Of a stretch of DNA of 64,000 nucleotides, positions 32,278 through 61,585 are shown in pieces (the stretch's first letter is position 1; each line of letters begins with the position of its first letter). The DNA is from Cristatella mucedo (taxonomy: Eukaryota; Bryozoa; Phylactolaemata; Cristatellidae): assembly GCA_009760855.2 (NCBI GenBank), contig WPIO01000306.1, positions 1 to 64,000 of the forward strand. Direction: 5' to 3'. Made by a program: the position numbers and the translations under genes. The notes under the pieces were generated by a model. That model was given only the letters and a program-made list of their open reading frames with translations. It was not told the origin of the DNA and ran no database searches.

Positions 32278-33201
<924 letters not shown>

Positions 33202-33799: not shown

Positions 33800-33966
33800 C
33801 TAGAATGCTATTTTTCTGATGCTGCTTGTTGATGGAGAAATAGACTGCACGGCATTCTTTTTCTTGAGAAAGCGGCCGTATGCAAGTTCTATAATCACTT
33901 GTGCAAGTTCAATAAAAGTCATAAAGCTGATGCCGATGTAGAGTCCTGATGTTCCGCCCAAGTCAT
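33800..33966 (-). CDS. Channel exon 8 (TM2, terminal exon)
   Basis: 167 bp, acceptor TTTTCGTATTTCAG. Encodes [20 protein letters not shown] and [16 protein letters not shown], with TM2 and the family's DxGG...G-x-S...E signature, then a 20-residue cytoplasmic tail and TAG at 33,800-33,802. The selectivity-filter G-x-S position reads GIS. Confidence 0.92.
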
Positions 33967-36900
33967 CTGAAATACGAAAATAGGCGAACATATCCTTAAA
34001 CTTGGTTCAGTTTTTTAATGGAAAGTGAAAAGTAGACATCGCATATATTTTCTCATAATTTCATTGTCAATATTAACCGAAACAATACGCAGAGATTCTA
34101 AATATCCTATCATCAGACGGAATGGGCTGTTCAGTTTAGGACACTGTTTTTTTCTAGCGAGCTTGGCAGTTTTAGTTTCGAAGGAGGCCAGAAATTTTAC
34201 ATGAAATTTCCCTCAAACCAGCTAGGTTATGTATCAGTTAATTAGTTGGTCCACGTGTCCGTGTTTTCGTAGCTGTCACTGATATGATGCCTAAATTGAG
34301 TCGTGTCTGTTAAATTTAGAACCTGTCAACGAGCATACAGGAATGATGCTCTCCAAAGTGGAATGATTATGGATAATTTGCATATGTTGCTGCAAAGTGA
34401 GCACTCGTTGCTAAATGAATGAATGGATGAAACACAAAAATGCTAGAGCATGAAATGCATAAATGTGTTTGAGCTTAGTATGATTTTTCTAATTTATACC
34501 ATGGCATTACGAGCTTCTTTCACTGTAGCTGCATGCATTAATGACATCCACACATGGGTGGCAGCAAATTTTCTAAAACTTAACGATGATGAAACTAACT
34601 TACTAGTTACGGGCTAACCCAATGTGATCCAGAGATTGGAAAGGCTGACACTCAAAATTGGCTCGGCCAGCATATCTCGAGTTGAATCAGCTCGAAATCT
34701 AGGTGTCATATTCTAATGCGACCTCTCGTTAGACGACGATATCAGCTCCACAGTCAAATCAGCCTATTTTCAGCTTCATAACATTGCTAAAATTCGGGCT
34801 CGTTTAGATAAAGATACCACGTTCAAGTGGGTCCATGCATTCGTGACATCCCGTCTCGACTTCTGCAACTCACTGCCTACTGGCCTACCAGCATGTGCGG
34901 TCAGACGATCGCAGCTGGTGCAAAACTCTGCAGCTAGAATTATCTGTCGTGAGTGTCGCAGTTGCCACATTACTCCACTTCTCGCCGACCTGCACTGGCT
35001 ACCAGTCAAGCTACGGATTGACTTCAAGGTTTTGGCGCTCACTTTTAGGTCCCTTCATTCTATGGCTCCAGCCTATCTGTCAGATATACTACCCCATCAG
35101 GCTAAGCATCGTACCACCTGCTTTTCGGACTCGAACAGTCTAGAAATACCTCATGCAAACCTTAAATCCTTTAGAGACCGTGCATTTAGTTCATATGCTC
35201 CCAAAGCCTGGAACTCCCTCCCGACCTGCGTCAGAACATCCCCTGACCTTACCACATTTAAAAGGAACCTAAAAACACACTTATTCAGGACAGCATTTAG
35301 TGGTCCCTGTGATTCGTCCTTGATGTGCTTATGCGTGCTGACACTGTTCATGCTGCCACTAACCACATTTGCACGCTGACCCTGTGCATGTCACCCCTAA
35401 CCATATTAGTCATTTAGTCTGTTTTTCAAGCATGATTTTACTTACCATTCAATTGCATTTCACTTTGCAGCAAATGTAAGGCGCCTATAGAGAGATTAAG
35501 TTCCCTGAGGGCGCTTTATCAAGTGAATTATTATTATTATTATTATTACACCAGATGTGACAGTTGGTGCTAATGAACCACGGTGGCCCACTGAGTCAGG
35601 CTGTTGCTTTTCATGACCTAGGTCGCATGGTCGTGTATTCAAATCTTACGGTAGTTGATTCATCATCACAACTGGAAGTGGTAGTGATAGCCTTAAAAAG
35701 GACCTTATATAGCTACACAAATGAGGCTGTTAAATGTGCTTATATTCATTTAGACGCTTACCAGCTTTCAATTGTCTCAGCTGAGTTAGCATGCTAAACA
35801 AGTCGCCCAATTTTTTGAAAGTATGAGTTATACGTTTCAGCATAAGTGCTTTGTGTTTACCAGTTTTTCAATAACGGCTGAAAATAAATAAGAGGATATT
35901 AATTTTTCAACAGCACATTTTTTATGGAAACCAATCTTGATCCAGCGTTAGCAGAAGCTGAAAAGAAAATGCCTTCTGGGATGCTAAAAACAGCCCAACA
36001 GCCTGAGGACGAAGCAGACGCGAAATACAATTTCCAGCAACTTTTTTTGGCCCTAAAATTGGTGAGATATAGTACTCAGGTTGCTTATGTATTAATACAG
36101 TTTCAAATTACTTACGTCAGAGATTGAAGTCATTTAGCTTAGTTAAAAATGATCATCTGAACTTTATGCAAAGCAATTGTCAGTCATTTGTATTATTCGC
36201 CCACAGTTAACATGTAGCATGAAATATTATTGCTCCTAAAAACAGACCTCTGATAATTAGCATCTAGCTTTAATGAATAATTTACTATATTTCCTCTAGT
36301 CAAGTTTTTGAAAGCTTTAAGTCAGATCCGAATTCTTCGACTAAATATTGGGTTTGCAGAGCACCTCATTTTGACTTATGTTCGGGAAAAATAAACCATG
36401 ATAGTAGGAGACTGAAGAAAGTTTAGTTCTATGGCCTAACCTGACTTATCGTTAGACGTGTACTTTCCCAAAAGAATGTGCACATTTTTTTCTTGTAATC
36501 TTTAAGCTGACTCAATGTGGATTTTTACCTCATGACACCAAGTACTAATTTAGTTTATTGTCCTTTGCAGAATTTTCTTCCGAATATTTATGTTCTCAAG
36601 AACATCGTATTTGCAAATGGATTGAGCTAAGACCTTTCTATACCTAGTCTGTTTGGTTGGTGGCCGTAACGCCTAAGAAATTAAGTGCCTGTGGACATCT
36701 CAATGCTTACCACTTAAAGCTGAGTCCCCCAAACCAGAGGCATCGTGAGATATGCTGACGGCTGGTCACATGCTTAATAGTTATGATCGCGCCGGCCAAT
36801 TATGGTGAGCCGTGATGGTACACTAGGTAAGGCTGTTGATTTTCTCGACCTTAGCCACGACCTTGGTCCCGAGGTCTCGAGTTAGAATCCAGCAGTAGCT

Positions 36901-39900: not shown

Positions 39901-40097
39901 CTTAGTTGCCAGAATTTTAATATACTTTCTAAATCTTGAATTGAATAATAAAAACAAGCTTTAGCCTTAATTACAAATTCATCGTAATGATGGAGTAATT
40001 GAAAACAGTTCTTTCAAAGGTGTTCTTCTTTATTGCCCTCTAAACTAACTAAATAAGAATAAACGAATAGATAAATTATGTCAATAGTATTGGCAAC

Positions 40098-40130
<33 letters not shown>

Positions 40131-43100
40131 TAAATAAATATATATATATATATGTATATATTTATTTATTTGCGATGGTATTTTTGTTATATGACCTCTT
40201 TAAAGTGTGCCTAAATTTGTAGATTCTACGAAGTCTGACTTTATATTTTTTGATGACATCAGCAGGTTGCAAACTAGTGGAATAATAATTCTATTGAAAC
40301 TTTGCATGCAGACTAGTAAAGTAATTACCAAAAAATCTTGACAAGAGGGGCTACTGATATTTGAGGTGATAGACAGATCTCTGTATTTAAGTTGCATAGA
40401 TGTTAACATCAGAGACTGAATTCTTTGTAGGGACTGATATATTCTAAGAGGTTTTCAAGTACTCTTAAATTTTAGTTGCGGCTTCGGCCTTGAGGTCCTG
40501 AGCTAGCGTCCTTTGCTTCGACCTTCGGAAATAAATGTTAATAACCGTCTGCTAGCCAAGAACTCATATAGTACAGCTTGAAATTATAATCCTAAGCGGA
40601 AATTAGTGTTGGGTTGGGGCGAATTGTGACTATTGCTGAAAGTTGGAAACAACATGGCAAACCTGAAAGTTATTGGTAAATTGTTGACGCTCTATATTCA
40701 TATATGCAAGTTTTCTCATAGGTTTTGTTCCAAGAATATTTTAATGAAATGTTGCACGTTTGCTAGTTGTCTTAGATCAGGGGTGTCCAACACGTGGCCC
40801 GCGGACCACAACCCGGCCCGCCGAAGTCTTCTATGCGTCTTGCAACGTTATCCCAAAAATATTTGTCACTCCATGTTTTTCGTTAATTTTTAATCATTAC
40901 AAAGGCCGATATAAGGTGCTGTGATGTACTTCACGCCCGCGTGAAGCCTGAAGGTGTCCGAGTGGCTATTTTCGCTTGAAGGTAAAAAGTCCATTTATCT
41001 TGCTACCTTCATGTGAACATTTTGGCGTGAAGGGGCAATATATTTGTGCTACAGCGGCGCCATTACAATCACATTTATAACACTTCTGCAAGACGTATTA
41101 ACTGTTTCACACCGTGGATAGAAAAAAGAGCCGTTTCTTAGCTGCTGCTGCACGAGCTGGAATCAGTCGGTAGGTTTTCAAAAACGCGTATTGCTCAACT
41201 TACTAATACTAAGATACTGCTGTGATAAAATATAAATTAATCAATTCGTAACTGATCTGTTTTTTATTTCACAGTGAAAAATGGCGGCGAACGTGAATAC
41301 TAGCTAAATACGAATAATTGACGCAGAAGGAAGACATTTCAAAGCATCTTGGACTGTAGACTATTTTGAAATGGAACGCTTCGGCAGGATAATGTGCCTA
41401 ATATGCCAAGAAACGATTGCCGTTGCAAAGGAGTACAATGTTGAGCGACATTTTCCAACGAAGCATTGCGACAGGAACAACAGCCTGACTGGTAAACTTC
41501 GAATTGATCGTGTGAACTCGTTGAAACAGAGCGTCACCGGACAGCAGTCACTGCTTACAGCAGTCAGCAACGAGTCTGAGGCTTCAACCACAGTAAGTTT
41601 TTTATTAGCTGAAGCCATAGCTAAGGGGGGAAGAATTTTCCGATGGTGAATTCGGAAATTAATACCACAGGCTGTTTACTGGTGTGGTCTGTCCAGAAAA
41701 GAAGTCAGAAGTAGGGAAAGTCACTCTTTCTCCTCCAACGGTTGCGAGAAGATTCGACGAGCTCGCATCCAACATAGAAGAAAGTCTCACTAAAAGACCT
41801 GCTGAATGCGAATTGTATTCTCTTGCGCTCGACAAAAGCACGGACAATAGCGATACGGCTCAACAGTCAGTGTTTGTACGCAGAGTAACAGGAAAGTTTG
41901 TCATAATCGAAGAACTGTTGGATATATGTTCAATGAAAGGCACTACAACCGTGAGGAATATTTTGGATCAGGTCAAGTGGGTCCTCACAAAATTTATTTT
42001 TCCTGAAGCTAAATTGATTGGTTTAACCACAGACGAAGACCCTGCAATAACAGGTAGACACAATGGATTTGTATCTTTAATAGCAAAATTAGTACCTCAC
42101 AAAATTGTCAGTCATCACTGCATCATCCACTAAGAACAGCTATGTGCAAAGGTCTTGAACATGCAACATGTAATGGACAATGTAGTTTGCACAGTCAATG
42201 TGATACGGTCTCTTGTGCTAAACCACAGACAATTTCAGGGTTTCCTTGAAGATTCGGGATCAGATCATTGTGATGTCATTTATTTCTCGCTAGTCCGTTG
42301 GCTAAGTAGGGCAAACACGTTAGCCAGGTTTTGGTCACTTCGGGACGAAATAGAAACATTTATGACAGAAAAGGGAAAAGATGTTGGCTTCCTCGATGAC
42401 TAGCACTGGTTGAATGACTTGGCTCTTTTGGTGGACATGAACAATTATCTTGCAGATCTTAATGTCAAACTCCAAGGTAAGGATAAATTCGTCCATGCAA
42501 TGTATGAGTGTGTTGTCGCATTTGTGCTAAAGCTAAAACTTCCGGAAACACTTAGACCAAAGAAACTGTTACATTTCACAACACTAGCAACAAGATCGCC
42601 TGAAATGCTGGCTCATATGAAGTACTCCACTCATGTTAGCAAACTTTTTGATGAATTCAAAGAGAGGTTTCGGGATTTCCATTAACATGCTGATGACATA
42701 AACATGATTAGTAATCCATTTAATATCAATCCCTCTGATGCACCTGATGAATTTCAACTCGAACTAATCGACATTCAGAATGACAGCAATTTAAAAACTG
42801 CTTATGATCAGCATGACCTTGTTACCTATTACAAGCAGTATGTTTCATAAGAGTCTTTTCCTAACCTAGCCAAACATGTTCGCAGGCATATTGCACTTTT
42901 TGGCAGCACATATTGCTTTTTTCCAGAGAGGAAAATGTGAAAACAAAGACTCGATCCGTTCTCACAGATGAACATTTATCAGGAATCCTTATAATTGCCA
43001 CATCCACTTTTGCAGCACATGTCGACTTTTTATGCAAGCTGAAACAATGCCAAATATCTCATTGATGCCTGCAGTGCAGTAGACATTGAATACCTGTGGC

Positions 43101-46100
43101 ATTTAATTGATCCGAAGACATTAATATTATGTTAGTCCTTGTCATGTAATTTTATGTTTTATAAGTTTCTGTCTCCATGTTATTAAAATAAAAATCCAAA
43201 AGTAAAAGATTGGCCATAATATCTATCGAATTATTTTCCAGGACACATGATTAAATTTTATTATTCATTATTTTCAATTATAATTATGCTAAAACATACT
43301 ATTGTATTGCGGTTAATTTATTAGGTATAATAGTAATAGACATACTAAATTACGATTATATTTTCTGATGCGGTCAACTACCCCAATTGACATGTGGCCC
43401 CCGGAGTTTAAAATTTTTTTCAATGTGGCCCCCAATGCAAAAAGCTTGGAAAGCCCTGTCTTAGATCCAGCGATCAATTGATGCTTCCGTGAGGACTACA
43501 TGAAACCCGAGGTCAACTAGGATCAGTAAACACTCAGCCATGACAGCTAACAAAGAGGCCATTATCGTGGCTCTTCGAGATCTTCAATGATCTCAGCGTT
43601 TGGTAATTGTTGTTGATCACACATGGGTTTGTTAAAAGCCGTCATTTTTTAAACAGCTGTTTGCAGTTTAAAACTTTCAAAAAGATCTGTTAGCAGCAGT
43701 TTTGCTGTTTTCACATTTTTCACTACTTTTACAGTCTCAGACTTATTTTTGTGAAGAATACAAATTCATTTTGCATATTTGGTGATGAATTCTAAATCAA
43801 TGCATTTTACTTATTATAATATTATTTAAGGATACAAATTCAAATAAGCTCTTGTAAATTAAGTAAAAATATATTGATTGAGATGCAATCATAGTTTTCT
43901 ATTAAAAATTGTTTAAACGTCCGTCTAAGTTGATTCCATGCATACAATTGCCTTGTGCATTTGTTGTTGCTTTTATTTCGATGGACCAAGTTCCCGAAGA
44001 GCATAAATTTGGACTAGAGCCAATTAAAATGGTCTTGCCCTCTGACTGCAATCGACGTTCCATCTTTTGTGAGGTAACAAATTAAATAAATCTTGAAGAG
44101 AGAAGATCATACTTTCAGCATCGTTTGACGACTGTTCTATGGCAACCGGTACATCGTTTATTCTAAATAGAACTGGGGCTACAATTTTGGCCAAATTAAA
44201 AGTACGTTATGCCTAATTAATGGATGGGTCTTTCATATTGTGATTGAGGATCATGATATCGTTGCTCAATGGCTCTTCAAGACAACACATCACGTTTTCC
44301 CCGAGCTTGGTACTAATGTCATTATTCAGTATAGAGAGCTTTGTGAATACGAATTCAAAAATCGTGTTACCACTTATAGGCGTTGCTTCTTCTCGACTTG
44401 GATTCTAAACAGCAAGTTTTATAGATTCTATTGCTTTCAATAAAGTATCAAAATCTTCCAACTGCAATGCTTTAATAATTTCAAGCGCCTTGAATTGGGT
44501 TGATATTTTGCGATGGCAATATTTGTCTTTAGTTGGGCCTCTAAAATAATTGGGATGCAGTTCCAGCTTGTACCCACGTTAAGATGCAGTTCGTTCTGAA
44601 CTCTACTTTAACTTTAGATCTAGATCTAGTTTAACTCGGCTTTTACTTTCGATTAAAATATTATTTCAAAAGGTTTATTTTTGATACATTTGACAAGCTA
44701 ACTGGGTTTCCTGAGCTGATGATGGTAATCCACGTTTCTTACTCATGTATCCTCACTGATCACTTTAAAGTCTGTACCTGCTTCAAAAATTGCTTATTTC
44801 ATCAATAACGTTACTACCCAGGTGAAAATTGATCATATCAATACTCTTCTTCGCCAATGTATCACATACTCAAATGTGCAGACCGCAGTTTAAGCAGAAC
44901 GGTCTAATGACATTGGTGTGGGTAATGCATTTCTTATTTACTGCAGTGCCGTCCTTTGCAAATCCTAACAAATCCCTTTCCGTAGTTATTCAAAAGCGCT
45001 AAAATGTTGTCTCATTATTTTGTCCATACCAGAAGCCATGCACGAACAAAATAAGTGAGCAAGTCCCATCTCGATTGGTGTTTCATGGCTTCTATCATTA
45101 ATGTTACCCCCGATGAATCAACCAGCTCTCACGGCTGGGTATTTGTCAATAGTAAAGCTAAAATTTACTCCTCTCTCTAGTTTTCCCGTATGTAATGTCG
45201 GTATTCATTTTGTCTCTCTTTTCTTAGTAATCATCGTGCACCAGCTCATCATTTCGCTTTCATTCGCTGGAAGTGATAATCCATCCCGTGAGATTGATTG
45301 CATATATGCTTAGTTGTAGTGATAGATCTAATCAATATTCCATCACTAGCCAGGTTGAAAAAAATCTCCTTCAGACTGTTTTGCACTAGAAAATACGGTA
45401 TTTGTTTTCTGATAGTTCAAAGTTTCTTCCTTGGGCGTAAAACCTCGGGCAGAATTATCACAATCAATTCCACGTATTTTCAGATGCTTTTTTTGGTTTT
45501 GGGAAAGTTTTCAGAGCATTAAGAATTTTATTGAAATTTCAGCTTCCACGTCAACTTTCTTGATCAGTGGTTAGCATTCTTCCTTATCCCGCGACCTTTT
45601 AATATAGTACTTCGTGTTGTGGCGACCCCCAACCGTAAAATTAGTGTATGCAAAATGCGAAAACGCATGTTTTCTGATAGTCTGACTTGACCCTGGTGAA
45701 AGGGTCGTTCGACCCCGAAAGGGGTCGCGATTCACAGGTTGAGAAGAACCAGAGGTTATAGATCTTCTGTAATTAGGTGGTTTCGTTTTGCGACATATTT
45801 TCAAACAGAAGACGTGACTGAAAATAAAATCAATATTTATTGACGCCAGAAGATCAAATTAATTTATATCCGACTTAATTTAAAACAAATTAAACAACAA
45901 ATATAGATTTTGGCCAATTTGATAGAACCATGATAATTTAAAAAAATTTGAACAAAATTAAAAGAGAATCTGGTTACTTATTTGATATCCCTGTAGAAAG
46001 TTTGAGTTTTATTTGTAATATCTTTCTGTTAAAAATACTTCCGTTTGAAACAATATAACAGGAGGAAAACCGATTTTCACTGGTTTTGATTATGAGTGGA

Positions 46101-47634
46101 AAACAGTTGTTTTACTTTCACTATTAAACAGTTACCAGAAAACCTAGTCACAAAGTAGAAATGGCTGAAACAATTTAATACATACACGGCATGAGATTCG
46201 TGCTTAGCTGTAGCTGGAATGTTTGCAGCTATCCTAGTGGGAGTATTTCACCTAATTCTCACACCTCTGACTGTGTATCAAAGCGAACTAAATTGGCAAA
46301 GATGGAATTAATGCTTACAAGAAGAACCCACGATCCGCCGAAGTGCGTTGCATTTAAAAAAGAAACACCTTAGTGTAACCACAGGTGGCTCGTACCTATT
46401 TGAAAACATTTCAGCGATTCCAATGTCAGGCGTCACAATATGGTTGGTCATGGTGTCCGCCTCTTAAGCTAATTTTTCCGGGTTTATCGACCAACCAAAG
46501 AGAAGCTTTCGGCTAATCTTTAGTAGGGCATGATGCCTAGAGTGAAATGCGTCGACATTCTTGGTTGAATAAATAAACCGTATCCATTGAAGCAATGAAC
46601 TCACTAGAAATGCATAAATGTCTATCTGCAGCTTAATGCCTTCCGTAAGTGGGAGGCAAGAACAAGCTCAGGGGCGTGTGTCAGTTAGTGGACATCTCAG
46701 CCCAGTTCAACACTCCTACTACGCTCTTGCTATCGAAGCAAATTATAACTTTGAAAACTTCAGTTATGGTCTATCCCAGAATGCGAGCAACGTCCAGTCT
46801 TTTTAAATGAAGGCTTGAGAGCACAGGTGAGGGGCTGCACAATAATTCTTCGTAAGAGTTCGACCAGCCACTACTGAAGCAAGCAAAGAATTGATAAGAA
46901 ATGAGTGTAGTGCCTATCGAGGTTTCCATTTTTACACACTGGTTATAAAAACTACCTCTGTTCACTATGCATGTCCTGAAAAGATAAGGCTAGGAGCTCG
47001 TCTAGTAAATAGTTCATAAAGCTGGATGCACATCGAAAGCCGCTCAGACATTGACCGGGATAATGAAAAAATACCGCCCGTTTAGCTGAAAAGTTCTGGT
47101 GGTTTCCTAGAGCTAAAGGCGGAAGGAGAATACATTATGCCTCAAAAAAGCTGGAAATGTGCATGTAGTGTACCGAAATAGCTTAAAATCATTCACATTA
47201 TGAGAGCTAGGTAATATAAACACGTTTGCACCATGCTTTCAGGGCATAGGTGCTTAATGAAAAAATATAGCTCATTCATCTAGCCCCGCAAGAGAACTTG
47301 ATATGTTTTAGGGAGCTTTACATGCTGGAGTGTCAAACTGTCCGGTCTTGTCTGCGATTGCAAATTAAAGATTGCAGTTGCTAGCTTATTCCAGAAGCTT
47401 ACATTATCGTTGTGTGCATTGGGCTTGCCTTCATGGGCAGTGAACGATGGCTAGCCAACACTCGGCTCTCCAGAGCTTACCGCTTCTGAAGCCTTGGTAG
47501 TTGACGGCGGTTGTAGAGGAACATATTCAAAAGCAATTTCAGTGCGTGCTCCGAACCGCTAGGTCTACTCAAGGGTACGGCCTGAAGCTCACGCTACACT
47601 ACGATGGCTATGTAGGAAGGTTTTCTCTCTCCAG

Positions 47635-47684
<50 letters not shown>

Positions 47685-50600
47685 CTTTCTATCTCTCTCA
47701 GTCTCACTGCGGTGCAGATATTAGTTCGAGCTTTAAGAGTCGTGCAACGGCAATAGCTGCTTTGTAGGATCTGCAATTTTCCCTTCGTGAGCTACAGCTC
47801 TACACTTTGAACTTTGCTCATGAAGCAGTGCACAATGAAATTACCACTCATTGCTTGACATAGCTGCAGCGTGAGAAACTGGACTTACGTGATAAAACTG
47901 ACTTCGACTTTCGACGACGACTGCAGTTCACGGCCGATATTGCAGTTAGGGAATTGTGCGTAGCTTACGGTCGAAATGAATTCCTCGTAATTGCAAGGCT
48001 CTGGACATTGGCAGTACTGACTGAAGTTTGTGTTGATCATTCCTATAAAGTTCCTTCTCTCGATAGAGTAGCTCCGAGCACTAGTGCTTACAACTTAAAC
48101 AGTGCAGCACATACTTTTAAAATGAGCACGACACATCTCTTAAGCTATTCAGATTACTCGAGTACAATAAATACTTGCAGATACAGCAGCCTCTTTTGTA
48201 TAGCGACAGGAGAGCCTTTACTGCTATAATCACAGCTTGCAGCAACGATGAATGATAGCCCACAACAGGATTAGAACAAAAACCTCGGGACCATCAATAA
48301 TAATACTTATAATAATGCACTTGATAAAGCGGGCTTGGTGAACTCAATCTCTTTCTATGTGCTTTACATTTGCTGCAAAGGGTAGGTCGGGAAAAGCAAC
48401 TACCTTAGCTAGTGAGCCATCGTGGCACAAGCCATTTGATTATAAGCCTATTCAGGACTTTCACTGGCATGCAGCTAGCTGGTTTGATGGAGCGATTAAG
48501 GTGTTCGCCCCGACCAGGTTCTGTCTGAGATCGTGGGCTCAAGCCCAGAGGCACATATGTAGCGCCTGAATAGAGATTAAGTTCTCTTGAGGTGCTATTC
48601 GAATGAATTATTATATTATCTATACCCAATAATAGCAATGATCTTTCTTAAAAGAATCAAGCAAGTAGCTTTGTATCTTGCTAGAATTTCGAGCGAACGT
48701 CTGATCTACGGAATTGTGTTACTATCTGGGGAGTTGCACAATTGACGGATTGACGACTCCATGATGTGACCATTCTGACAGCATCAAGTGAGTGGTGCCT
48801 CCCCGGCAAGGTAGCATCAGCAATTAGTACTGTGCAGCTAGGGCATAGGAAACACAATGGCTCGCTGACCGAGCGGTTCCGTTTAAAGCCTCTAATGTTA
48901 TGACGAATTACGAAATAATGAAAGCGTGTGTCTGCTAGCAGAACAATCTTACTCAATATCCCAGATATCGTCCAACCTGATTGTTTGGCTGCAGTACCTC
49001 TAATATCTCATTAGGAATGGGTGTGCAAGTGGAGGCCAGAAATATTATCAATGACTTTTTGATGTTTGTCGCCTCACGGCCTCGTCGATTATCAACGATT
49101 ATAGGTACTACCACATTGATATATGATAAAACTGTGCAAAAGTTTAGAATCTTCAGGATATGTGCCTGAGATTTAGCTGGGCTTGAGACCGCAGGGAATA
49201 ATTGGGATGAGTGGCTTCAGCTTTTGCTCAGTACCCTAGCAAAGCATGGTGCCGGCCATTGTCAATTGCAGTGTCAGTCGAAGTATAGGATTTACCATCC
49301 TGGTCAAATAAGATGCTAAAAATGAATCGAATGGATGATCAGTGTCTCGTGACCTTTCTTCTCCGAGGGTATTGCCAGATAGGAAAGAGAAAGTGGTAAG
49401 CCTTAGTCATGTAGTGCATACAGGTCAGATGTAACTCTTACTTATTTCACCAAGTACCATGTCGAAGCACTAGGTTTTGGACTACCCATGGTGGTTAATT
49501 TTGAATTCACATGAAATGCGATAGTTACTACTAGATACCCCATTCGTTTGGCCTGCAATTGGTTGAGTTGCAAATACAATTAAATGCGGCAGATTCTATA
49601 CATAATTTCCTGTCAACACAAGTGGATGTAACTCCAGTCTGTAGCTCTGCAAAACCATACAGACTATGTGGGTGTTATTCACAAGAGTTTTGAATAGCAC
49701 GCTCACAGCCTAAGCGGCTTTCGGTATGCATTCGGTAGCCAACAGAATTTGGCTCACGCAACAAAGAGATAGTGAAAAGCATAGCATAGTCGGGAGAGCA
49801 GCTGAGGTAGTGAGTAGCGTTGAAGTAGCAGCACAGGACCGTTGAAAAACATGAGCCATAGTCGGTAGCAGGAGAGTAGTTTTCGTTGCCTAAAAAATAT
49901 GGTCAGCGAGTTCCGCAGTCTAGGACCCGCAGAGCTTGAGCGTCTGTTTAATTATAAACAATCATAAAGTCGAAAATAATTGTAGGGCAGAAGTGCATTT
50001 TACAGCACAGCAGAAGCCCAAGTGGCTTAGGCGCAGGGTCACCAGCCTTCGTCTCATATAGGGAATAGAAAACGGAAAGGTAGTTGGAATGACTAGGACG
50101 GAGTGCAAAAATAGCAGCAGCAACATTGTAGTTGGATACCGCAAACAAATCACAAAATCGACGGCAAAAGTAACTGAAAGATATTATCATGCCTACAATT
50201 TACAAGTGTGTGTTTTAACCTTACCGATCAAAAAAAGCACAACAAGTTTGATAACACGGTTATTAAAATAAATAGACAGCTCATTTAAAAAAAATTGATA
50301 TTCATTAGTAACACGGAAATGTTTGAAGAAAGCAGGTGCTGTGCCGTGTTCAAATAATTATAAATACATACGCCGTGAACGGATTTTTTAGTAGACCCGT
50401 GTGACGTGACGTCTTATTCATATTCAATTAGATAAAACCACCAAATTAAACAAAAATAATACACACAATGCAGGCTCATGGATTCATGCATTATCAAAAT
50501 ATGTAGCATTCGTTTACTCAACAACTGCTTTATAAACATCAAGTGATTTTAATGGCAGTCCTTCTACAAGTGAGTAAGAGAAAACAAGACTGCAGAGTGG

Positions 50601-53600
50601 AATCAAATAGTCAAATCCTTTTTTTATTATTGGCCATAGGCTATCGTTACTTCTACAGCCAGCGAAGGTGGTTATCGGTCTTGAAACCAGAATTGTAAAC
50701 ACTACGGCGTGATTAGGTTGTTAAAGATTCACCGTTGTGCTGGCTGTAGCAGGTAATATCTCAAATGCTTCCCCATAATTTAATCTTGAGCTTTGACTAC
50801 ATATAAGCTACATAGTTTACATAATCACACCACTCAAAGAGTTTACTCTTACTCTTTGTTTTTTGAACCAGACTTTAAGGCCACACTCTACATACATTTA
50901 TTCGATGCCATCATCGTTAGACTAAGAATTTGTCTGCATAAAAAACCTCCATCCATTATTGAAGTGCAGCAGCTGTGGCCAGAGGAGGGAATTTCTAAAT
51001 TAAGTTACAATTCAAGAACAAAATTGTTGAAAGTAAAATATTGACTAATTAGCTTGTTTCACCACCTTTCTCCACACAGGTATGGTGGTTTAGGATGATG
51101 CAGAGAGGTAGTCGTAATCAGACCATTTGGATCAATGCTCAATAAGTGCAGCCTAATCATCGACAATGCTGTCTCAATAAAATAGGCTTCTTAAAGGAAA
51201 AAATGAATCAATATACTTCGTAATTTAATATTTACATAGTAGAACAATTACTATCCTCAAGGGTTAGCTTTACTGACAGCAGAAGTTCAAATAACTTCAA
51301 AATAATAATAGAAAACAGAACAACTATCAATGGGAATGTGATATAAGTTTTCCAAGACTTGGCAATGTGAATACGGGAATTTTGATTTTTTTTAATTTTA
51401 GATTTCTCATACATTAGGCCTCCCATGCTTGTCATGTATATTCAATGTGCAACTCTTCAATTATTATTGCATCTTACTTTGAAATTGTAAAGTGTGAAAG
51501 CAGCCAATTATCAAGTGCACAAAAAACCGCCTACGTAACTGGTAAGAACTATCTACTTGAAATAAGCTATCTGAAATCGCAATCAGAATCATACAAAGAG
51601 GAAGCTCTTATCGAACACCCTGAGCAGGATTTACGCAGACAGAACATTTGAAGGCAAGGTAAACATATGATCAGAAAGGTTGAACATTGAGTGAGGCCTC
51701 ATCATCGGATATTCGTGCACCTGATCCTCAATCTGTTTATAGTTCAATGCTGCCAACCAGAGAGACAAATAATTGCCTACAGCTCCTGAATGAACAAAGA
51801 AATGTTCGTCTTGACATAAACACTACTTGGAATGTCATGAGGCATACATAGAACGACAAGTGCAGTACTATCGTTTTGAATCGAATCGTGATTAAAAAAT
51901 ATCTGCTGCAGAAGTTAACAAAGATTTTTGGTATTTCGCGTCAAACATATTAATTTAATGTATCGTATCTCCGTCTTTAACTCCACAATTCATAAAGACC
52001 ATGTGGGTGTTAGGCAGGAGAGTTTTGAATAGCACACTCACAGCCCAAGCGGCTTTCGGTACGCATTCGGTAGCCAACAGACTTCGTCTCACGCAACAAA
52101 GAGAAAGTGGGAAGCATAGCAGAGTTAGGAGAGCAGTTGAGGTAGTGAGTAGCATAGAAGTAGCAGTTCAGGACCGCTGGAAAAGATGCGCTTTAGTCAG
52201 CAATTGGAGAGTAGATGTCTTTGCGTAAGAATTGTGGAAGCTAGTTCCACAGTCTAGGACCTGCAGAGCTAAAGCTTTTGTTGCCAACTGTCTTTAAGCG
52301 GAGGAATGGGTCAACTAATTTATTGTCCACACAGGTCCTCAGGGCACGAACAGGCTGAAACTGATGCAGCAGTTCAGCTAGGTACGAAGGAGCTAAGCCA
52401 TGGCGTGCCATGTGGGTCAGCGTAAGAACTTTGCTCTGTATCCTTTGCTCAATCGGCAACCATTCTGGCTCTTTCAGCAAAGGTGACACGTGCTCAAACC
52501 GCTGGGACTTGAAGACAAGCCTTGCAGCCATATTCATATTCCGCTGTAGTGGCATAATATCTTTCTTTGGCAGCCCAGCAAAAAGGGTATTACAGTTATC
52601 AAGCCGAGACAGAACTAAGGAACCAGTTAAATTTTTTACAAGTCACTGTGGGAGACAGCTACTTATCTTGGATAGGGATCGGATGTGATGGCTAGCTGTA
52701 GAGGCAGTCATCCGAATGAAGCTTTAGAAATCGAGGCAGCTGTCGAACATGACACTTAACTTACAAGCACTTAGTGAAGGTCGCACGATAACATCACCTA
52801 TTAGAACAGCAAGCCTTTTAATCCAGCCTAATGCTTAAGATGTCGTATGAGCAGCAGTTCGGTTTCATCGTCATTTAAGTTCAGGAAGTTTTCCGACATC
52901 TAGGATCGAATATCGGCAAGGCAAGCATTCAATTTATCATTTGCTGCAGCAGATTCCGACGGTTTAAATGACAAATACAAATGAGTATCGTCAGCACAGA
53001 AGTTGTATTCTATTCCATGGGCCTTAATCACTTTTCCCAGAGGTTGTGTATAAATGGAGAACAGCAAGGGACCGAGTAGAGAACCTTAAGGGACTCCACA
53101 GCTGACCCTTCTCGTGGCTGATACCTGACCCCCACACGACACGGATTGAACACGATCGCACAAGTATGATGTAAACCACGGCAGTGCTTCGTCTGCCATA
53201 TCACAGGCGGAAACTTCGGAGAACCTTTTAAGAAAGGTCACAGGTTGAGGAACGGCGATTGCTTTGGTCGGAGGGGGCCCAATGGAGGCACGAATGTGCA
53301 CAATTTTTTCAGTAAAGAATGCTGACAAGTGTTCAGCTGAGCCCTTAATATCTGGGGAGTCAGACCTCACAGCATTGGCCAGTAAATAGTTTACTGTCTT
53401 ATAAATCTGTTTAGTGTCCGACTGGCAGTAATTCAGCTTATAATGAAAAAAGAAGACTTCTTTTTTTAAGCTTTCTGGTGTAAACTCGAAGAAAGTCTTT
53501 AAAATTGACTAGATTTGCCTCAGACACCGATTTCTTGAAACGACGTTCTAGCCTGTGCTTAACCCGGCGTATCAAAAGGAGTTTTATTGTAAATTGAAAG

Positions 53601-56600
53601 GAATCTCGACGACTTTGAAGACTGATAGAGCGAACGGGAGCATTTGTTCAAGTGCACTCCTGAGTGTCATGTTCATCGCATCAGTGAGGGTATCGAGGCT
53701 GCCGGTCGAGTCTGAATGCAGATTAAGAAGACCTGCATCACAAACACATGTGAAAAACTTGTCCATGTAAATGCTTTGTAAGTTACTTCGTTTGGCAAAT
53801 TTGACATTGCCCTGTACATACGAGGGAGCAGGAACAGTAAACGAGACCGAACAATGATCTGAGAGGGTAAGTGGGCACACCAAAAAGTAAATGGGGAGGA
53901 CATCCATAGTGATCACGAGATCTAGAATGTGGCCACCGTCGTGGGTGCTATGATTAACCTGTTGGGCCAAACACAAATTCTCTAGACAGTCAAGAAATGA
54001 GCGGACCTGGCTGTTGCTAGGGTTGTCAACGTGAATATTGAAAGTCTCCCACAATTAGTAACGGCTTGTCACACACAAATATTTTAGCGAGTAACTCTGA
54101 AAACCCCTCTATAAACAAGTTTAGACAGCCAAAAGGAGGCCGGTATATCACGACAGCGAGAGGCATTGTCTTTGATGAAGACCAGATTGCAACCGATTCA
54201 AACGATGGCCCATGCGAGAAACTGCACATTTTATAGCCAAAGGATTTGCGAACAACAATTGCGACCCTGCCACCAACCTTGTCAGAATGCATGGACTGAT
54301 AGAATGAAAACCTTGGTGAGGTGGTCTCAGAAATACAGCTACTGTAACAAGACGTCATCGAGGTTTCGGTAAGCAGAAATGTATCTCTCTTCTCCTGGAC
54401 CACTTGATCCCGGATAAGCAGCCCCTTGGTTTTTAGCGTGCGAACATTTAGTAGGCGGAATTTAAGAGGCTTTTCAATAACTGGGCGACGGTGATGAAGT
54501 GGCTTGTATTATTTACCGTTTGCGTCCGGCCCGGCAGAAACTGGATCTTTGAATTTGAATTGGACATTGGTAACAGCCGTCGGACGACGTTTGACACCGT
54601 GCTGGGCTACGGCGGGTGGGCTACTACCGCAACAAGTACTATTCAGTGCTTTAAACTTACAAGTCGTAGGATTGATAGCCGAGCTGTTGATAGGGCGAAC
54701 GCAGGATGCAGGAAGGTTCTCACTGACCCGCCGGTGAAGGCCCGCTGGTAGGTATCGACTAATGGCGACATCGCATCTTATGCTAAGCAGGTCATATTTT
54801 GTGTAGCATATCCGAGGACAGCTCATAAATTGTCACAGCGGAGATAGCAGCGGAATACCCCAAGGTATTACGGAGAAATTAAGTGAAGGTCCACACCACT
54901 GTAGGAGTCGTCCGAGGTCGCTCTTTAGCGCGTGGAGGAATTTTTCACCCTCTAAATTGTCATTCTACTTCCGCTGAATGACTTTAAAATTTATCATCGA
55001 AATTTTCTTTCAACTCCAATCTAGGAGATGATGATTTTAATTCGGTATCAGCCTCAAAGAAGGTGCAGTATCTACTATAAATGTAGGTATTTTCAGAAAC
55101 CAATAAAATTAATTGCCTGTGTGTGTACTAGCATTGCCTAAGCTATTAGCTGGGTAAATAATAAAAAAAATGTCAAAGCGGGCATTATTTATGCGTTTCA
55201 CATAGCTCCCGTGCTGCTACAAAGCTCTTATAGAAATCATTCAAAAGAACTGTTAAATTACGGCAACAAGTCGATTCGGGTTTTTAGTTTATACCTCGGT
55301 TAAGGATTTTTGAAGTGCATAAACACATTTTGGATAGAGGAAATTAATAGAAAGTATCATTCTAAGTCTTTGAACTAAATTATGTTGAGGATTTTGAATT
55401 TTCCCATGGTGATCTAATCTCATCAAATTCTTTGGATAACACCGTATTATGATTTTTACTTCAACGCTTTCTCACTTGATAGTTTAATGTGTTGTTTATC
55501 TTACCACAGCCACAACATTAACTTGTATTCGAGAATAAAGCGAGTCTTTTTGGCTGCATGTTATTATAGGACAATGCCAGTCATTTACTTGGCTATCTCA
55601 ATGAAATGTGAATGACTGGCAGTGGTTTAGCAGCCAAAGTGATTAACATCGTGAATTGGCTTGCATTCACAAAGAAGAGCAAATTGTCAGAAGAACATGG
55701 GATAATAAAGATTTAGACAGTAATTTTGGATTAGTAAGCAGAAACGATGCAGACATTCGTAGTCGCAACAGCTGCTTTCGCAGGTAGTGATTCCGATGCT
55801 TGAGCAAATCTGCTAAAGTCTCCTCTAGTTAGACGGATCTAACTTGCTGCTATTATATGAGCTATTCAGTCACGAAAGATTTTAGATTTATAGATGCCAC
55901 GTTTAGTATATAGAGTTTAGGTTGACGGTAGTTGCAATTTTAAAGGATAAAACGCACTTGGCAATCTCTGAATAGTACCTGTATACTTTTGTATATTTTT
56001 CAAACATGGTACAGTGCTTGTCTTTAACCCATGATTATTGCTTCTCTCGCAGTCGTTTTTAAAGAGCCAGGGTATGGATATTTTTGGTTTCTCTTAGGTG
56101 TTCAACAGAAGAAGTATTATTATTGCTGTAATAGAATTTGGTAACGACCCAAGAGACTCCAAAAGATAACAAATAGTTCCAAGAGGGGGGCAATATAGTT
56201 TCAAAGAAAATTATCATGACACTCGTATTTCCAAAAGGCCGACAAATAAAATTGAGTCCAACATTTACGAACAGCAGAATCCTTTATCTAAAAAGTTAAC
56301 TTCGAGATTTATGTTTGCTACCATAATACGAAACTTGAAATGCAAACTTTACACAAATACTGACCTTCCATTTTAGCAGCACAGCCTAGACTTTCGTCGA
56401 TGTTGCACATATTGCCGATTTTTGGATAAAAAAAAGGTATGCATGAGCAATTTTGTTCTGTTAACATCATTTTGCATTCTGCTTCACACGATGAAAGAGT
56501 GTAGGTGTCGAAATATTTGAGTTGTTGGTTAGGGTCACATTCACCTTCTGGTGGCTCAATATTTTCATACTAAAAAGTAACAGGTAACTTGATAGATGCA

Positions 56601-59600: not shown

Positions 59601-61585
59601 TACCAAAATGTAAGGAGCAAGTACAGAAAACAGTGCTGTGACCGGCTTCTCTCAGAGTGCATAAGGTATTAGTCATAGTGTGCATAACTATCCACACAGC
59701 AACTTCCTTTTGAAAATATGCAAAATATTGTTTCGCCATTTAGGAGGGAACGCTCAATTTGATGACAATTATGATGAGAATTTTATGTTAAAATCTAATG
59801 GGTAAGATTATTTACTAAAGGTTCATTTCTATAAAACAGCCAAGAAAGTGCGAAAGGGAAACTGCTTTTGCCAATTGATAGAGCGGGCTCTGTATAAGTT
59901 CACATTTATTACTTTCCGAGAGCCAAAAGCATTCACAAGGCAAGATGTGCAAAATACCATAGCCCGATAAATATTTTGCATATACTTGATTATCCCGTGT
60001 CCAAAATTAGTAGTATTCGATATAAAAAATTAAATTAAACAAAAAACTTATAATATTAACATTTTGAACCTAAGTCTCTTAGCCAAGTGAGCATGGAAAT
60101 CCAGCTTTCAATGTGAGATTTTAGAGTATTGGTCGAACAGCATATGAAGCCATGCAGGTGTTCAGATTCAGAGTTATCTTTATCTGAACGATTTCAGCCG
60201 GTCAGCAGATAAGCCTAGCTATTTTCAGCTAAGTTAAAGGGCACAGAATCGGGCATGTTCAAACTGGAATAACTTATCCAAGTCGGTCCATGCACTTGTC
60301 AAGCATCTTCTTAACTTTGGCAAATCAATTTCTGCAACTATTTCCTTACGAACCTCAAAACCGTTGGATACCGTGCCTTAGTTTGTATGCTCTTAAAGCC
60401 TGAAATTTGCTACCCACTCACGTCTCAACGCCCCCATACTTGCAATTTAAAAAGAGCTCAAATCACATATTTCTAGTGCAGCATCTAGCGAGTCTTTGTA
60501 TTCGTCCTTCGAGTGCATGTATCCGCTTAGTTGCTCGTGCCTACTGCTTACTAAGCCCGCGTCTTAAGAATGTTGCTCCCAAACATTTTGTGATGCTTTA
60601 TTAGCAGCATTTGTAAAGTGCCTAGAGTGAGAGAGAGATGCATTTCTCTGAGGGCGCTATACACGTTCACTATTATTAATAGTTAAACTGATATTACCAC
60701 CTAAGTAATGCGGACTTACGGTCGCTAAAAAGGTCTGAAGCTAAGCCTGTTGATTTTGAAAGTCACAATCACCACATGAAACCACTTTTCAAGCAGATTT
60801 ACGCTTTCCTAATCAACCAGTAAATCAACTTCAAGGTGTTGTCCCTCCATTTTATACCTCCACCAATGCCGTTCACTGGCATACCTCTGATCTGCTTCTC
60901 TATCAGGCATGACATTACACCACTGGCTGCTCTGACTCAAGTCACTTAGCTGTACCTTTAAATAACGTCAAATCACCAGCCGGCTGTGTCTTTTGTTCAC
61001 ATACTATCGATGCTAGGGACCAAAAACACATCTAAACGTGAACAGCCCAATCTGATCTAACGTAATTTTTACAAGAGGCTACAAGTGCACATGCTCTTCA
61101 AAATAGCTACTCGGTCCGAGTAAGCTGTCATTATGTAGGCAAAAACTGGAAATGTGACTAGTAACCTTTGAAACTGTTCTTTTGCAAATATGTCTAGTTC
61201 ATAAAAAGAGATTTAGTGGATTTTTTCAAAGGAGGTTCCACAATGTGTTATGATTATCAGTATTATTGCACAAAGTCAATTTTTACTGATATTTATAGGG
61301 AAAACATGCGATAAAAGTAGCACTTTCGTCAAAAAGTAACAGATTTTAAATCGCGCCATTAAGTAAAAGTTTAAGATGTCTCTATTAAGTTTATCGAAAA
61401 AAAATCGGATAATGAGAGACTAGAACTCTTCATAATTAAACTCACCTTAGAATTGCATGGAGTCCCGGCAAAGTAGCATCTTAAGAGGGTCAAGCTTGTG
61501 TCACCAGCAAACTGAGCAGCATTAAATTTGTCTACAAGATGCCAACCTCTGTCGTAAGTGAAATTGTAGAGATCAATCGGAGTAA
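33800..61585 (-). CDS. DEG/ENaC-family sodium channel gene (partial, 7-8 exons, N-terminus not found)
   Basis: A ligand- or proton-gated cation channel subunit of the ENaC/ASIC/FaNaC family: plasma membrane, two transmembrane helices, large cysteine-rich extracellular loop. Exons (minus strand): 61585-61446, 59516-59346, 59266-59114, 56569-56365, 56092-55958, tentative 55824-55770, 39259-39168, 33966-33800. Diagnostic motifs in order: [47 protein letters not shown], the cysteine-rich SSCEAEC and [38 protein letters not shown] and the TM2 segment [20 protein letters not shown]. All confirmed exons are open, with GT/AG borders and matching phases. About 370 residues are covered; full proteins are usually 500-700, so TM1 and the N-terminus (about 100-150 residues) lie upstream or outside. 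Introns hold most of the window's transposons. Which ligand gates it cannot be told. Confidence 0.85.
34515..35549 (+). mobile_element. LINE-2, 5'-truncated, best-preserved 3' third
   Basis: Starts in the RT thumb ([17 protein letters not shown]) and continues through the C-terminal domain, open at 34,843-35,379 ([55 protein letters not shown]), to the 3' UTR and a perfect ATT-repeat tail (35,525-35,549). It lies in the intron between channel exons 7 and 8, opposite strand. It served as reference for aligning the other LINE-2 fragments. Confidence 0.88.
35575..35750 (+). mobile_element. SINE-A copy 4
   Basis: GGCCCACTGAGTCAGGCTGT, CATGACCTAGGTCGCATGG, decayed B-box GTATTCAAATC (35,635-35,645), GAAGTGGTAGTGATAGCCTT and terminal CTACACAAATGAGGCTGTTA. 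Confidence 0.65.
35751..36804. other. Intronic spacer, nothing recognised
   Basis: Part of the exon 7-8 intron. A plus-strand frame at 35,924-36,127 shows no motif. Confidence 0.4.
36805..36985 (+). mobile_element. SINE-A copy 5
   Basis: CACTAGGTAAGGCTGTTGAT, GACCTTGGTCCCGAGGTC, decayed B-box GAGTTAGAATCC, CAAGTGGTGGCGATGGTCG and AACGCTCTTCTAGCTCTGAA. Confidence 0.65.
37330..38290 (+). mobile_element. LINE-2 with internal deletion
   Basis: 37,350-37,560 carries an endonuclease remnant ([19 protein letters not shown]-like, one base off frame). 37,600-38,060 is C-terminal domain ([15 protein letters not shown]-like, then [15 protein letters not shown]-like). 38,060-38,290 is the 3' end. The RT core is missing, so this copy is internally deleted. 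Lies in the exon 7-8 intron. Confidence 0.65.
38291..39167. other. Intronic spacer between LINE-2 and channel exon 7
   Basis: Short frames at 38,192-38,398 (minus) and 38,599-38,811 (plus) have no motifs. No repeat recognised. Confidence 0.4.
39168..39259 (-). CDS. Channel exon 7 (pre-TM2)
   Basis: 92 bp, excellent acceptor TTCTATTTTTTATTGCAG and donor A|GTATGT. Encodes [18 protein letters not shown], then [12 protein letters not shown]. This is the beta strand and linker directly before TM2. It ends with 1 nt that, joined to exon 8, gives Asn of ILNDLGG. Confidence 0.85.
39260..40777. other. Intron DNA between exon 7 and the hAT element
   Basis: AT-rich, contains the AT/AAAT repeat at 40,098-40,172. 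No coding motif seen. Confidence 0.4.
40098..40172. repeat. Compound (AT)n(AAAT)n(AT)n repeat, self-complementary
   Basis: AT run, five AAAT units, AT run, then ATTTATTTATTTG. The AAAT arm and the terminal ATTT arm are inverted, giving hairpin potential. Confidence 0.9.
40778..43458 (+). mobile_element. Complete but inactive hAT DNA transposon
   Basis: 2,681 bp, flanked by an exact 8-bp duplication TCTTAGAT (40,770-40,777 and 43,459-43,466), the size produced by hAT transposases. Imperfect terminal inverted repeats: CAGGGGTGTCCAA at the left, CAGGGCTTTCCAA (RC) at the right, followed by GTGGCCC-rich subterminal motifs on both sides. The interior holds one transposase gene with several stops. 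It sits in the large channel intron, opposite in strand to the host gene. Confidence 0.93.
41371..43020 (+). pseudogene. hAT transposase, GTF2IRD2/ZBED-like, broken
   Basis: Open blocks 41,371-41,649, 41,684-42,133, 42,155-42,403 and 42,410-42,685, with further remnants to about 43,020. In order: a zinc finger (CLIC...HFPTKH), [17 protein letters not shown] with the first catalytic Asp, [11 protein letters not shown] with the second, SHHCIIH followed by a stop where relatives have Gln, [15 protein letters not shown], the block [20 protein letters not shown], and a C-terminal dimerisation-type [19 protein letters not shown] (about 42,947-43,003). The order matches the lineage that gave rise to vertebrate GTF2IRD2-type proteins (family knowledge). 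Stops at the block junctions and after about 42,683 make it inactive. Confidence 0.85.
43467..45564. other. Intron DNA with a possible minus-strand RT remnant
   Basis: Apart from the RT-like stretch at 43,980-44,190, no motif is supported. 44,290-44,420 resembles 21,440-21,590. Confidence 0.35.
43980..44190 (-). pseudogene. Possible non-LTR RT remnant of another family
   Basis: One minus-strand frame reads [20 protein letters not shown], then [19 protein letters not shown]. This resembles the post-YADD helix and the W-x-V-N-x3-KT segment of non-LTR RTs, but the catalytic residues and the KT are gone. Low-confidence recognition. Confidence 0.3.
45565..45755. mobile_element. SPIN-like hAT MITE
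   Basis: About 191 bp, non-coding. The left end CAGTGGTTAGCATTCTTCCT continues TATCCCGCGACCTTTTAATA and GGCGACCCCCAACCGTAAAA. The right part has GTGAAAGGGTCGTTCGACCC, GGGGTCGCGATTCACAGGTT and GAGAAGAACC. These terminal and subterminal motifs correspond closely to what I know of SPIN (Space Invaders) hAT elements, with the middle shortened. An imperfect 8-bp duplication (TTCTTGAT/TTATAGAT) flanks it. Located in the large channel intron. Confidence 0.8.
45764..47927. other. Intron DNA left of duplication block 2
   Basis: No supported gene. A CT repeat lies at 47,626-47,702. The plus-strand frames across 47,500-48,060 look coding-like in composition ([20 protein letters not shown]) but are broken by stops, and the block 1 counterpart is not open. 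Confidence 0.35.
47626..47702. repeat. (CT)n microsatellite
   Basis: CTCTCT with TATCTATC interruptions over about 75 bp. Confidence 0.93.
48180..48430 (-). mobile_element. SINE-A copy 6, split by a LINE-2 fragment
   Basis: CAGCCTCTTTTGTATAGCGA through AACCTCGGGACC (48,186-48,291) is the 3' part on the minus strand. GGTCGGGAAAAGCAACTACC and AGCTAGTGAGCCATCGTGGC (about 48,386-48,425) complete the tRNA-like head. The two parts would join without the 48,292-48,383 insert. Confidence 0.7.
48292..48383 (-). mobile_element. LINE-2 3'-terminal fragment inside SINE-A
   Basis: RC reads GCAGCAAATGTAAAGCACAT, AGAAAGAGATTGAGTTCACC and the ATT-type tail, i.e. only about the last 90 bp of LINE-2. A severely 5'-truncated insertion. 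Confidence 0.72.
48480..48612 (+). mobile_element. SINE-B copy 3 with LINE-2 3' tail
   Basis: The clearest copy. A-box-like GATGGAGCGATTAAGGTGTT (48,487-48,506), B-box-like GATCGTGGGCTCAAGCCC (about 48,530-48,547), then GCGCCTGAATAGAGATTAAG, TTCTCTTGAGGTGCTATTCG and AATGAATTATTATATTATC. The last ~60 bp match the LINE-2 3' end at 35,488-35,549. Confidence 0.72.
49624..49945 (-). mobile_element. L2-A 3'-end fragment
   Basis: RC of the family 3' end: CATGTGGGTGTTA-like region, GCTTTCGGTATGCATTCGGT, GTAGTGAGTAGC, ending inside the C-terminal coding region. Block 1 has no insertion at the matching place (about 14,570), so it inserted after the duplication. Confidence 0.85.
52241..53370 (-). pseudogene. 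Decayed RT and C-terminal domain of L2-A copy 4
   Basis: 53,370-53,086 open: [19 protein letters not shown], then [16 protein letters not shown], where linker sequence is fused directly to the mid-RT (deletion), then VQSVSCGG. The block 53,085-52,560 contains the YADD region and thumb in broken frames. 52,555-52,241 is open: [20 protein letters not shown] and [10 protein letters not shown]. Confidence 0.85.
53584..54826 (-). pseudogene. Leader and endonuclease of L2-A copy 4 (frameshifted)
   Basis: Leader 54,826-54,509 ([20 protein letters not shown]). Endonuclease 54,403-54,026: [10 protein letters not shown] with the catalytic Glu kept, [35 protein letters not shown] frameshift lies near 54,045, and the rest is at 54,054-53,584: [46 protein letters not shown]. 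Better preserved than copy 3. Confidence 0.87.
55770..55824 (-). CDS. Tentative channel microexon 6
   Basis: 55 bp. The acceptor TAACTAG and phase fit exon 5, and the outgoing phase fits exon 7. Encodes [17 protein letters not shown], which resembles the helix before the N-W/Y-V segment. The donor (GTTGCG) is poor, and the block 1 copy lacks a GT there. Phase requires some exon between exons 5 and 7, but it may be a different one. Confidence 0.4.
55958..56092 (-). CDS. Channel exon 5
   Basis: 135 bp, starting in the phase left by exon 4 and ending in phase 1. Acceptor CACCTAAG (weak pyrimidine tract), donor GTGCGT. Encodes [14 protein letters not shown] and [19 protein letters not shown], the PC-x4-Y motif of the family. 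The paralogue has TAA at codon 4. Confidence 0.75.
56365..56569 (-). CDS. Channel exon 4 (cysteine-rich domain)
   Basis: 205 bp (68 codons plus 1 nt), acceptor ACTTTTTAG, donor GTCAGT. Seven cysteines in the expected order, within [35 protein letters not shown] and LGCAAKME. Open across a run of eight T that keeps frame. Confidence 0.9.
59114..59266 (-). CDS. Channel exon 3
   Basis: 153 bp, 51 codons, phase 0 at both ends, separated from exon 2 by a 79-bp intron. Acceptor AATTTAG, donor GTAAGG. Encodes [23 protein letters not shown] and [14 protein letters not shown], the palm/knuckle region of DEG/ENaC channels. Fully open where the paralogue has TAG. Confidence 0.9.
59346..59516 (-). CDS. 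Channel exon 2
   Basis: 171 bp, 57 codons, phase 0 at both ends, acceptor TCTATTTAG and donor GTAATT. Encodes [16 protein letters not shown], then [13 protein letters not shown] and [10 protein letters not shown]. Paralogous to 21,168-21,338. Confidence 0.88.
59601..60179. other. Intron DNA between channel exons 1 and 2
   Basis: Beyond the right edge of duplication block 2. No repeat or coding motif recognised. Confidence 0.4.
60180..60690 (+). mobile_element. LINE-2 3'-end fragment
   Basis: Decayed C-terminal domain ([15 protein letters not shown]-like at about 60,388-60,435) and the 3' end GCATTTGTAAAGTGCCTAGA, TTTCTCTGAGGGCGCTATAC with tail CTATTATTAATAG. Lies in the exon 1-2 intron. Confidence 0.72.
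60740..60980 (+). mobile_element. LINE-2 C-terminal fragment
   Basis: [20 protein letters not shown]-type region decayed to [20 protein letters not shown] (about 60,778-60,845), followed by a remnant of the next block ([10 protein letters not shown]). No 3' UTR. Confidence 0.55.
60981..61445. other. Intron DNA next to channel exon 1
   Basis: AT-rich; no feature recognised. Confidence 0.4.
61446..61585 (-). CDS. Channel exon 1 (first one found)
   Basis: 140 bp: 2 nt completing a codon plus 46 codons. Strong acceptor TTTCTTATTGCAG and donor AAG|GTGAGT. Contains [11 protein letters not shown] and [16 protein letters not shown], the C-x-F/Y-x-G-x2-C extracellular motif that precedes GxCYTFN in this family. 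Ends in phase 0, matching the next exon. No counterpart exists near block 1, because the duplication stops at about 59,600. Confidence 0.8.

Follow-up and report, generated by a model that had tools for sequence, protein, structure and literature searches.

The channels with the closest solved structures to the gene described here are ASIC5/BASIC, ASIC1 and ASIC2. In the text of PMC9949801, the core proton determinants of ASIC are H73, D78, K211, E411 and E416, and the acidic pocket is described as conserved solely in chordate group A ASICs. The pocket carboxylates D237, E238, D345 and D349 are named in PMC10507113, which also mentions other DEG/ENaCs that sense protons without the ASIC residues. 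A His-Gly pair before the first transmembrane segment (TM1) and a Trp at the start of TM1 are given as DEG/ENaC hallmarks (PMC9822975), and the His-Gly of ASIC1 sits in a re-entrant loop below the selectivity filter (PMC7308080). The degenerin position corresponds to G430 in ASIC2 and is Ala in BASIC and Ser in TadNaC6 and ACD-1 (PMC6827283). In the NeNaCs of the sea anemone it is Gly, Ala or Ser, and a large side chain at this position opens some DEG/ENaCs permanently (PMC9822975).

The locus was analysed in the window, that is, the whole 64-kb stretch C229:1-64000 of a genome record of 572 Mb in 688 contigs. We read it as an intact, most likely functional gene for a DEG/ENaC (Pfam ASC) subunit with nine coding exons and 463 aa, one of an expanded family and accompanied by a decayed partial copy downstream; the probability of this reading is put at roughly 0.88. 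From its N-terminus, which is short and cytoplasmic, the predicted protein passes through TM1 into an extracellular domain rich in cysteines; TM2, with a GIS filter, and a short tail follow. By family knowledge, the product would be a trimeric amiloride-family cation channel.

Gene model and surroundings

A sequence-only reading of the window had proposed seven minus-strand exons with GT/AG borders. All seven positions were borne out, with a reading frame that is continuous across every junction:

61585-61446, minus strand: exon A, coding exon 3 of the complete gene, 140 bp, AG acceptor and GT donor, phase 1 in and 0 out, palm/finger segment
59516-59346, minus strand: exon B, 171 bp, alone ASC E 4.8e-6
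59266-59114, minus strand: exon C, 153 bp, alone ASC E 4.5e-6
56569-56365, minus strand: exon D, 205 bp, thumb segment with seven conserved cysteines, alone ASC E 2.5e-10
48042-47889, minus strand: exon E, 154 bp, acceptor TTTATAG|GAATG, alone ASC E 1.7e-4, under the gathering score
39259-39168, minus strand: exon F, 92 bp, phase 2 in and 1 out
33966-33800, minus strand: exon G, 167 bp, carries TM2 with the GIS selectivity filter, the C-terminal tail and the stop, alone ASC E 0.0042

AG was present at all seven acceptors and GT at all six inner donors. The junctions 59114/56569 and 39168/33966 were exact as claimed, and the last of them, between exons F and G, is the predicted split codon (A|AT, Asn) that yields ILNDLGG. 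The phase chain, given as 0,0,0,1,1,...,1, was right except at E/F, where the intron is of phase 2; the computed inner introns are 0,0,0,1,2,1 and the intron entering exon A is of phase 1. A start of exon E at 48020 (ttcag|TCAG) was rejected on incompatible phases. The start at 48042 fits, and its AG is kept in five of five sister copies looked at elsewhere in the genome and in the decayed copy. Exon A was present in all six sister copies looked at.

As had been stated, no long ORF marks the gene: none of the 16 ORFs of at least 120 aa covers its exons. The family assignment was confirmed by the ASC profile, which the joined seven-exon peptide matched with an E value of 4.3e-61 over profile positions 147-453 of 455. 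Searched singly against Pfam, five of the seven exons matched ASC at E<0.01, and three of these (B, C and D) exceeded the gathering score. No match was obtained for exon A or exon F.

A TM1 exon had been expected upstream of 64 kb and was found in the genome record at C229:68,297-68,496. A profile search of the genome gave the ASC match for TM1 at C229:68278-68460 on the minus strand, and a motif search and the listed ORFs gave no TM1 exon between 61.6 and 64 kb. The exon reads MAEPNTEALLPLKVFKVIVLLVLGSVTIWQCYLNVQEYLKHEAVTSISKVSADSIDFPQVTICNYNR and terminates at a phase-2 donor. Scanning the gap between it and exon A for open segments with matching phases and fair splice sites produced eight candidates. 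The ninth exon was placed at C229:65,014-65,123 on the minus strand, with both splice sites kept in 8/8 aligned sister copies and the aligned codons of these copies free of stops. Indels occurred in five of the eight alignments, three of them 9-base and in frame and two of 1 base (the mirrored pair L019/L024). An alternative at 63263-63160 kept its borders in 9/9 and 8/9 alignments, but its copies held 12 stops. Of the nine coding exons, which stretch over 34.7 kb of the minus strand (C229:68,496-33,800), seven fall inside the window. Their product of 463 aa has no internal stop and matched Pfam PF00858 (ASC) with 262 bits (gathering score 23.6) and an E value of 1.6e-77 over profile positions 22-453 of 455.

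The description of the locus as transposon-packed is fair, yet the load is modest for the gene itself, with at least four transposon-like pieces in 33.8-61.6 kb:

about 34.5-35.5, 37.6-38.1, 41.7-42.1 and 52.0-54.9 kb: transposon-like pieces inside the gene
51951..54936, minus strand: degraded CR1-like LINE of about 3 kb in the D/E intron, detected by self-BLAST, with similarity to reverse transcriptase and endonuclease-like ORFs of other copies

The CR1-like insert is missing at the matching place of the decayed copy, and both gene copies align on either side without it. A hAT-like transposase fragment at 41684-42130 showed a weak DUF4371 match under the cut-off, and about 45000-45780 resembles what we take to be a non-autonomous hAT element. 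Denser transposon clusters lie outside the gene, at 1.3-12.3 and 28.5-33.2 kb. Roughly 600 bp beyond the downstream end of exon G, at 28527-33198, lies an LTR retrotransposon-like element in a GC-rich patch (56%). Its long repeats are 87-94% alike in pieces; one ORF had an aspartyl-protease match and another was gag-like without a Pfam match above the cut-off. Broken CR1-like LINEs, mutually 82-94% identical in their longest matches, form a cluster at 1350-12300, and a nearly perfect (AT)115 dinucleotide run was present at 4093-4322.

Channel class

The best PDB matches of the full protein were ASIC5 with 161 bits, ASIC1 with 157-159 and ASIC2 with 154, matched over about 410-425 residues. ENaC subunits reached at most 88 bits, FaNaC at most 83 and Pickpocket 26 reached 48. 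The product shares with ASIC5/BASIC and ASIC1/ASIC2 all 14 cysteines, a GxS filter and FPxVTxCN after TM1. In the window part, each of the 13 ASIC1 cysteine positions that were tested is kept, and the 14th (TICN) lies in the TM1 exon. The filter is GIS at the GAS position of ASIC1 and GFS in six of six sister copies read. Identity to chicken ASIC1 was about 29% over the window part (84/293 aligned). Unlike ASIC and BASIC, which hold Gly and Ala, respectively, at the degenerin position, the gene has Asn there; it also differs in its short N-terminus, its known first exon without His-Gly and its TM1 start without Trp. Judged by similarity score, the product is a DEG/ENaC on the ASIC/BASIC side, but by its determinants it is no ASIC.

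The mitochondrial code of the animal was read from COX1 on the mitochondrial contig C688, where ATA stands at 12 places, AAA at 2 and AGR at 11 (AGR read as Ser). Several of the ATA places are presumably Met in other animals, and both AAA places presumably Lys. This codon usage indicates the invertebrate code, NCBI code 5. In the flatworm mitochondrial codes 9 and 14, ATA encodes Ile and AAA Asn, and the code found speaks against the flatworm framing that had been given to the gene; the animal is probably no flatworm. A stretch of C688 has a nuclear copy on the 5.6-Mb contig C166, about 97% identical over 3.8 kb; C688 therefore belongs to the animal itself. The contig measures 21 kb and its recognised protein genes are all on one strand (order read from ORFs, names by eye). 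One unnamed open frame recurs in L053, L054 and L011, so that part of the contig is repeated.

The code is compatible with molluscs, annelids and brachiopods, the animals whose DEG/ENaCs include the FaNaCs (PMC9234716), and the gene could encode a neuropeptide-gated channel of the FaNaC/WaNaC kind. We consider this unlikely, as the FaNaC structures 7yvb and 8on7, which share the superfamily and the ASC domain, scored only 83 and 70 bits against 161 for ASIC5 in a comparison by bit score.

A possible role as an acid-gated channel was weighed residue by residue. ASIC positions were counted as the chain index of 3ij4 and taken as rat numbering, which is consistent with K211 and W287. In the window gene, K211, E411, E416 and W287 are replaced by H, S, T and E, and the acidic-pocket residues D237, E238, D345 and D349 by T, N, A and G. 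In a gapless alignment drawn by eye from the FPxVT anchor, H73 corresponds to A and D78 to S, where we assume the ASIC1 letters at both positions. An acidic residue at chain index 219 is kept. That the gene is an ASIC, opened by protons through the wrist histidine, the palm lysine and the acidic pocket, is improbable despite ASIC5, ASIC1 and ASIC2 being its closest solved structures: none of the five core determinants (PMC9949801) and none of the four pocket carboxylates (PMC10507113) is kept, and ASIC5/BASIC itself is described as not proton-activated (PMC10507113). Since conservation of the pocket is confined to chordate group A ASICs, its absence alone decides nothing. With the ASIC proton residues absent, ASIC-type acid gating is unlikely. 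Acid sensitivity of a non-ASIC kind is possible, as other DEG/ENaCs sense protons without these residues.

Gene copies and selection

The window part of the gene gave 114 matches in the genome. Counted by hand among the matches listed, with two shorter rows excluded, 19 rows span most of exon D, the window gene and the decayed copy included, in addition to one gene on C135. They are borne by nine contigs: C14, C32, C52, C104, C135, C229, C317, C382 and C441. Seven copies were read for 58 of 63 possible exons, nine each in C104a, C32a, C52 and C317, eight in C104b and seven each in C104b2 and C104c. Their exon order was that of the window gene, and exon length was identical in 51 of 58 cases. 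The exceptions were the ninth exon, 9 bases shorter in three copies, three exons of C104c that differ by one base and exon G of C52, which differs by one base. AG was found at 51/51 acceptors and GT at 51/52 donors. The single lost GT donor belongs to C104c, which is a pseudogene by this loss and its length differences. The TM1 exon and the ninth exon of its mirrored twin L024, which lies outside the set of seven, have the same frame breaks. Of six copies read for it, only C32a and C104b retain the terminal stop of exon G.

The dN/dS of the window gene was 0.357 against C104a, 0.436 against C32a, 0.355 against C52, 0.369 against C317, 0.446 against C104b and 0.453 against C104b2. These pairs covered 338-459 codons, with exons of unequal length dropped pairwise, and the bootstrap upper limit was at most 0.67 in each. 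C104b and C104b2 come from the two arms of a single inverted duplication. The sister copies in general are young and in part mirror images of one another, which limits their independence as witnesses.

Contig C104 carries, at about 57-340 kb, a large inverted duplication with several DEG/ENaC copies per half. The halves matched inverted at 97-99.5% identity in all four fetched pairs (L017/L022, L019/L024, L018/L021 and L020/L023). Either a genuine palindrome or an assembly that fused two haplotypes could account for this structure. C135 (L001, L004 and L007) holds a more distant DEG/ENaC gene whose back half is one long exon; its TM1 begins RRALW and is preceded by no clear His-Gly.

Self-comparison of the window revealed a second, decayed partial copy at 13.4-21.4 kb, which the sequence-only reading had overlooked. 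It is a same-strand copy of 47.9-59.6 kb and lies about 12 kb downstream of the live gene:

21168..21338, minus strand: exon B', still open, 70% aa identity
20936..21088, minus strand: exon C', one in-frame stop
18381..18585, minus strand: exon D', a stop in frame, three of the conserved cysteines missing (by eye)
13398..13524, minus strand: truncated exon E' with indels, one of the conserved cysteines missing (by eye), clear homology stops within the exon

Altogether, 4 of 11 testable cysteines are lost, judged by eye. The idea of a complete second gene inside the window was rejected, as tblastn did not find exons A, F and G of this copy and the TM1 motif search found nothing for it. Exon E' was aligned separately. 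Over 66 aligned 100-base blocks, introns of the live and the decayed copy show 68% identity, and their exons are 83% (B), 78% (C) and 77% (D) identical. The dN/dS between the two was 0.35 (bootstrap 0.23-0.55), whereas the two wrong frames gave 0.83 and 0.97. Neutral simulations had a median of 0.79, and none of 500 was as low. With dN/dS below 0.5, the copy itself was perhaps under selection for some time before its decay; this is a weak hint, as the interval extends to 0.55.

That the exons are relics of a gene no longer alive, as the decayed neighbour, at least one broken sister copy and the transposon-invaded introns might invite one to think, is highly improbable given 463 stop-free codons, every splice border and cysteine kept, a dN/dS of 0.36-0.45 against six sister copies and a value against the decayed copy that neutral simulation did not reach. 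Paralogues of the same genome can thus support a scattered gene model without RNA. Because animal genomes contain DEG/ENaC genes, the gene-finding result is solid but ordinary.

Degenerin position and N-terminus

The degenerin position was placed by its seven-residue spacing to a conserved Gly (ASIC2 G437). It coincides with the codon that exons F and G share, AAT for Asn. Asn was found in all seven copies with both exons read, the window gene and the broken C104c included.

The TM1 exon, as far as known, begins only 10-20 residues before the membrane. His-Gly was absent from this known exon of the window gene and of the sisters read, upstream of which a further 5' exon is possible, and it was also absent where the exon continues through the site in divergent relatives, of which one on C14 and three on C441 could be read. 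A relative on C32 has a Met start at the matching codon. The ATG in the TM1 exon of the window gene is kept in only four of eight aligned copies, two of those broken, and an ATG seven codons upstream is present in six of eight but lost in the window gene. With the one start poorly kept and the other lost, there may be a spliced 5' exon, which could hold His-Gly. An upstream scan of 13.5 kb on the minus strand gave eight HG[LIVMFA] tripeptides, one with a phase-2 donor (C229:76,533); none was convincing as a His-Gly exon, and C229:76,533 is a weak candidate. TM1, LPLKVFKVIVLLVLGSVTIWQ, has a Trp at its outer end only and none at its start. The gene is therefore a DEG/ENaC member by homology and not by the canonical hallmark set; the Pfam ASC profile demands neither His-Gly nor the Trp at the TM1 start. 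A limited literature search (including PMC10728431, PMC8536179 and PMC10148893) met no DEG/ENaC with a degenerin Asn and no His-Gly-less subfamily; 200 divergent sequences had been set aside in PMC10507113.

The degenerin Asn, together with the known N-terminus without His-Gly, suggests non-canonical gating. Such a channel may be constitutively open or altered in its gating, or it may serve within a heteromer as a modulatory subunit. Constitutive opening and a heteromeric role are both guesses worth testing, and the constitutive idea would extend to this gene, from one residue, what published mutants of other channels do. Losing such motifs need not change gating, since working Hydra channels keep His-Gly and other motifs only partly (PMC4212090). 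TadNaC6 and NeNaC8 are open at rest (PMC6827283, PMC9822975), which is the behaviour guessed for the window gene. They are likened to it by behaviour and not by sequence, with Ser at the degenerin position of TadNaC6 and Gly, Ala or Ser in the NeNaCs, unlike the Asn found here. A wider reading is tentative and we regard it as doubtful: an expanded DEG/ENaC subfamily would have dropped the His-Gly loop before TM1, and Asn would have become fixed at its degenerin position, as seen in all copies read, with purifying selection in several copies. It would then be nature's equivalent of the 'degenerin' mutants made in the laboratory, either conducting at rest or gated by a different lower pore.

The gene itself is an ordinary member of a known family, and the pore and N-terminus of its subfamily are a variant that merits a direct test. 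The His-Gly loop and a small degenerin residue are treated as near-constant in the DEG/ENaC family. If the wider reading is true, a subfamily under purifying selection would allow expression experiments to test whether both are needed for a closed, sodium-selective channel.
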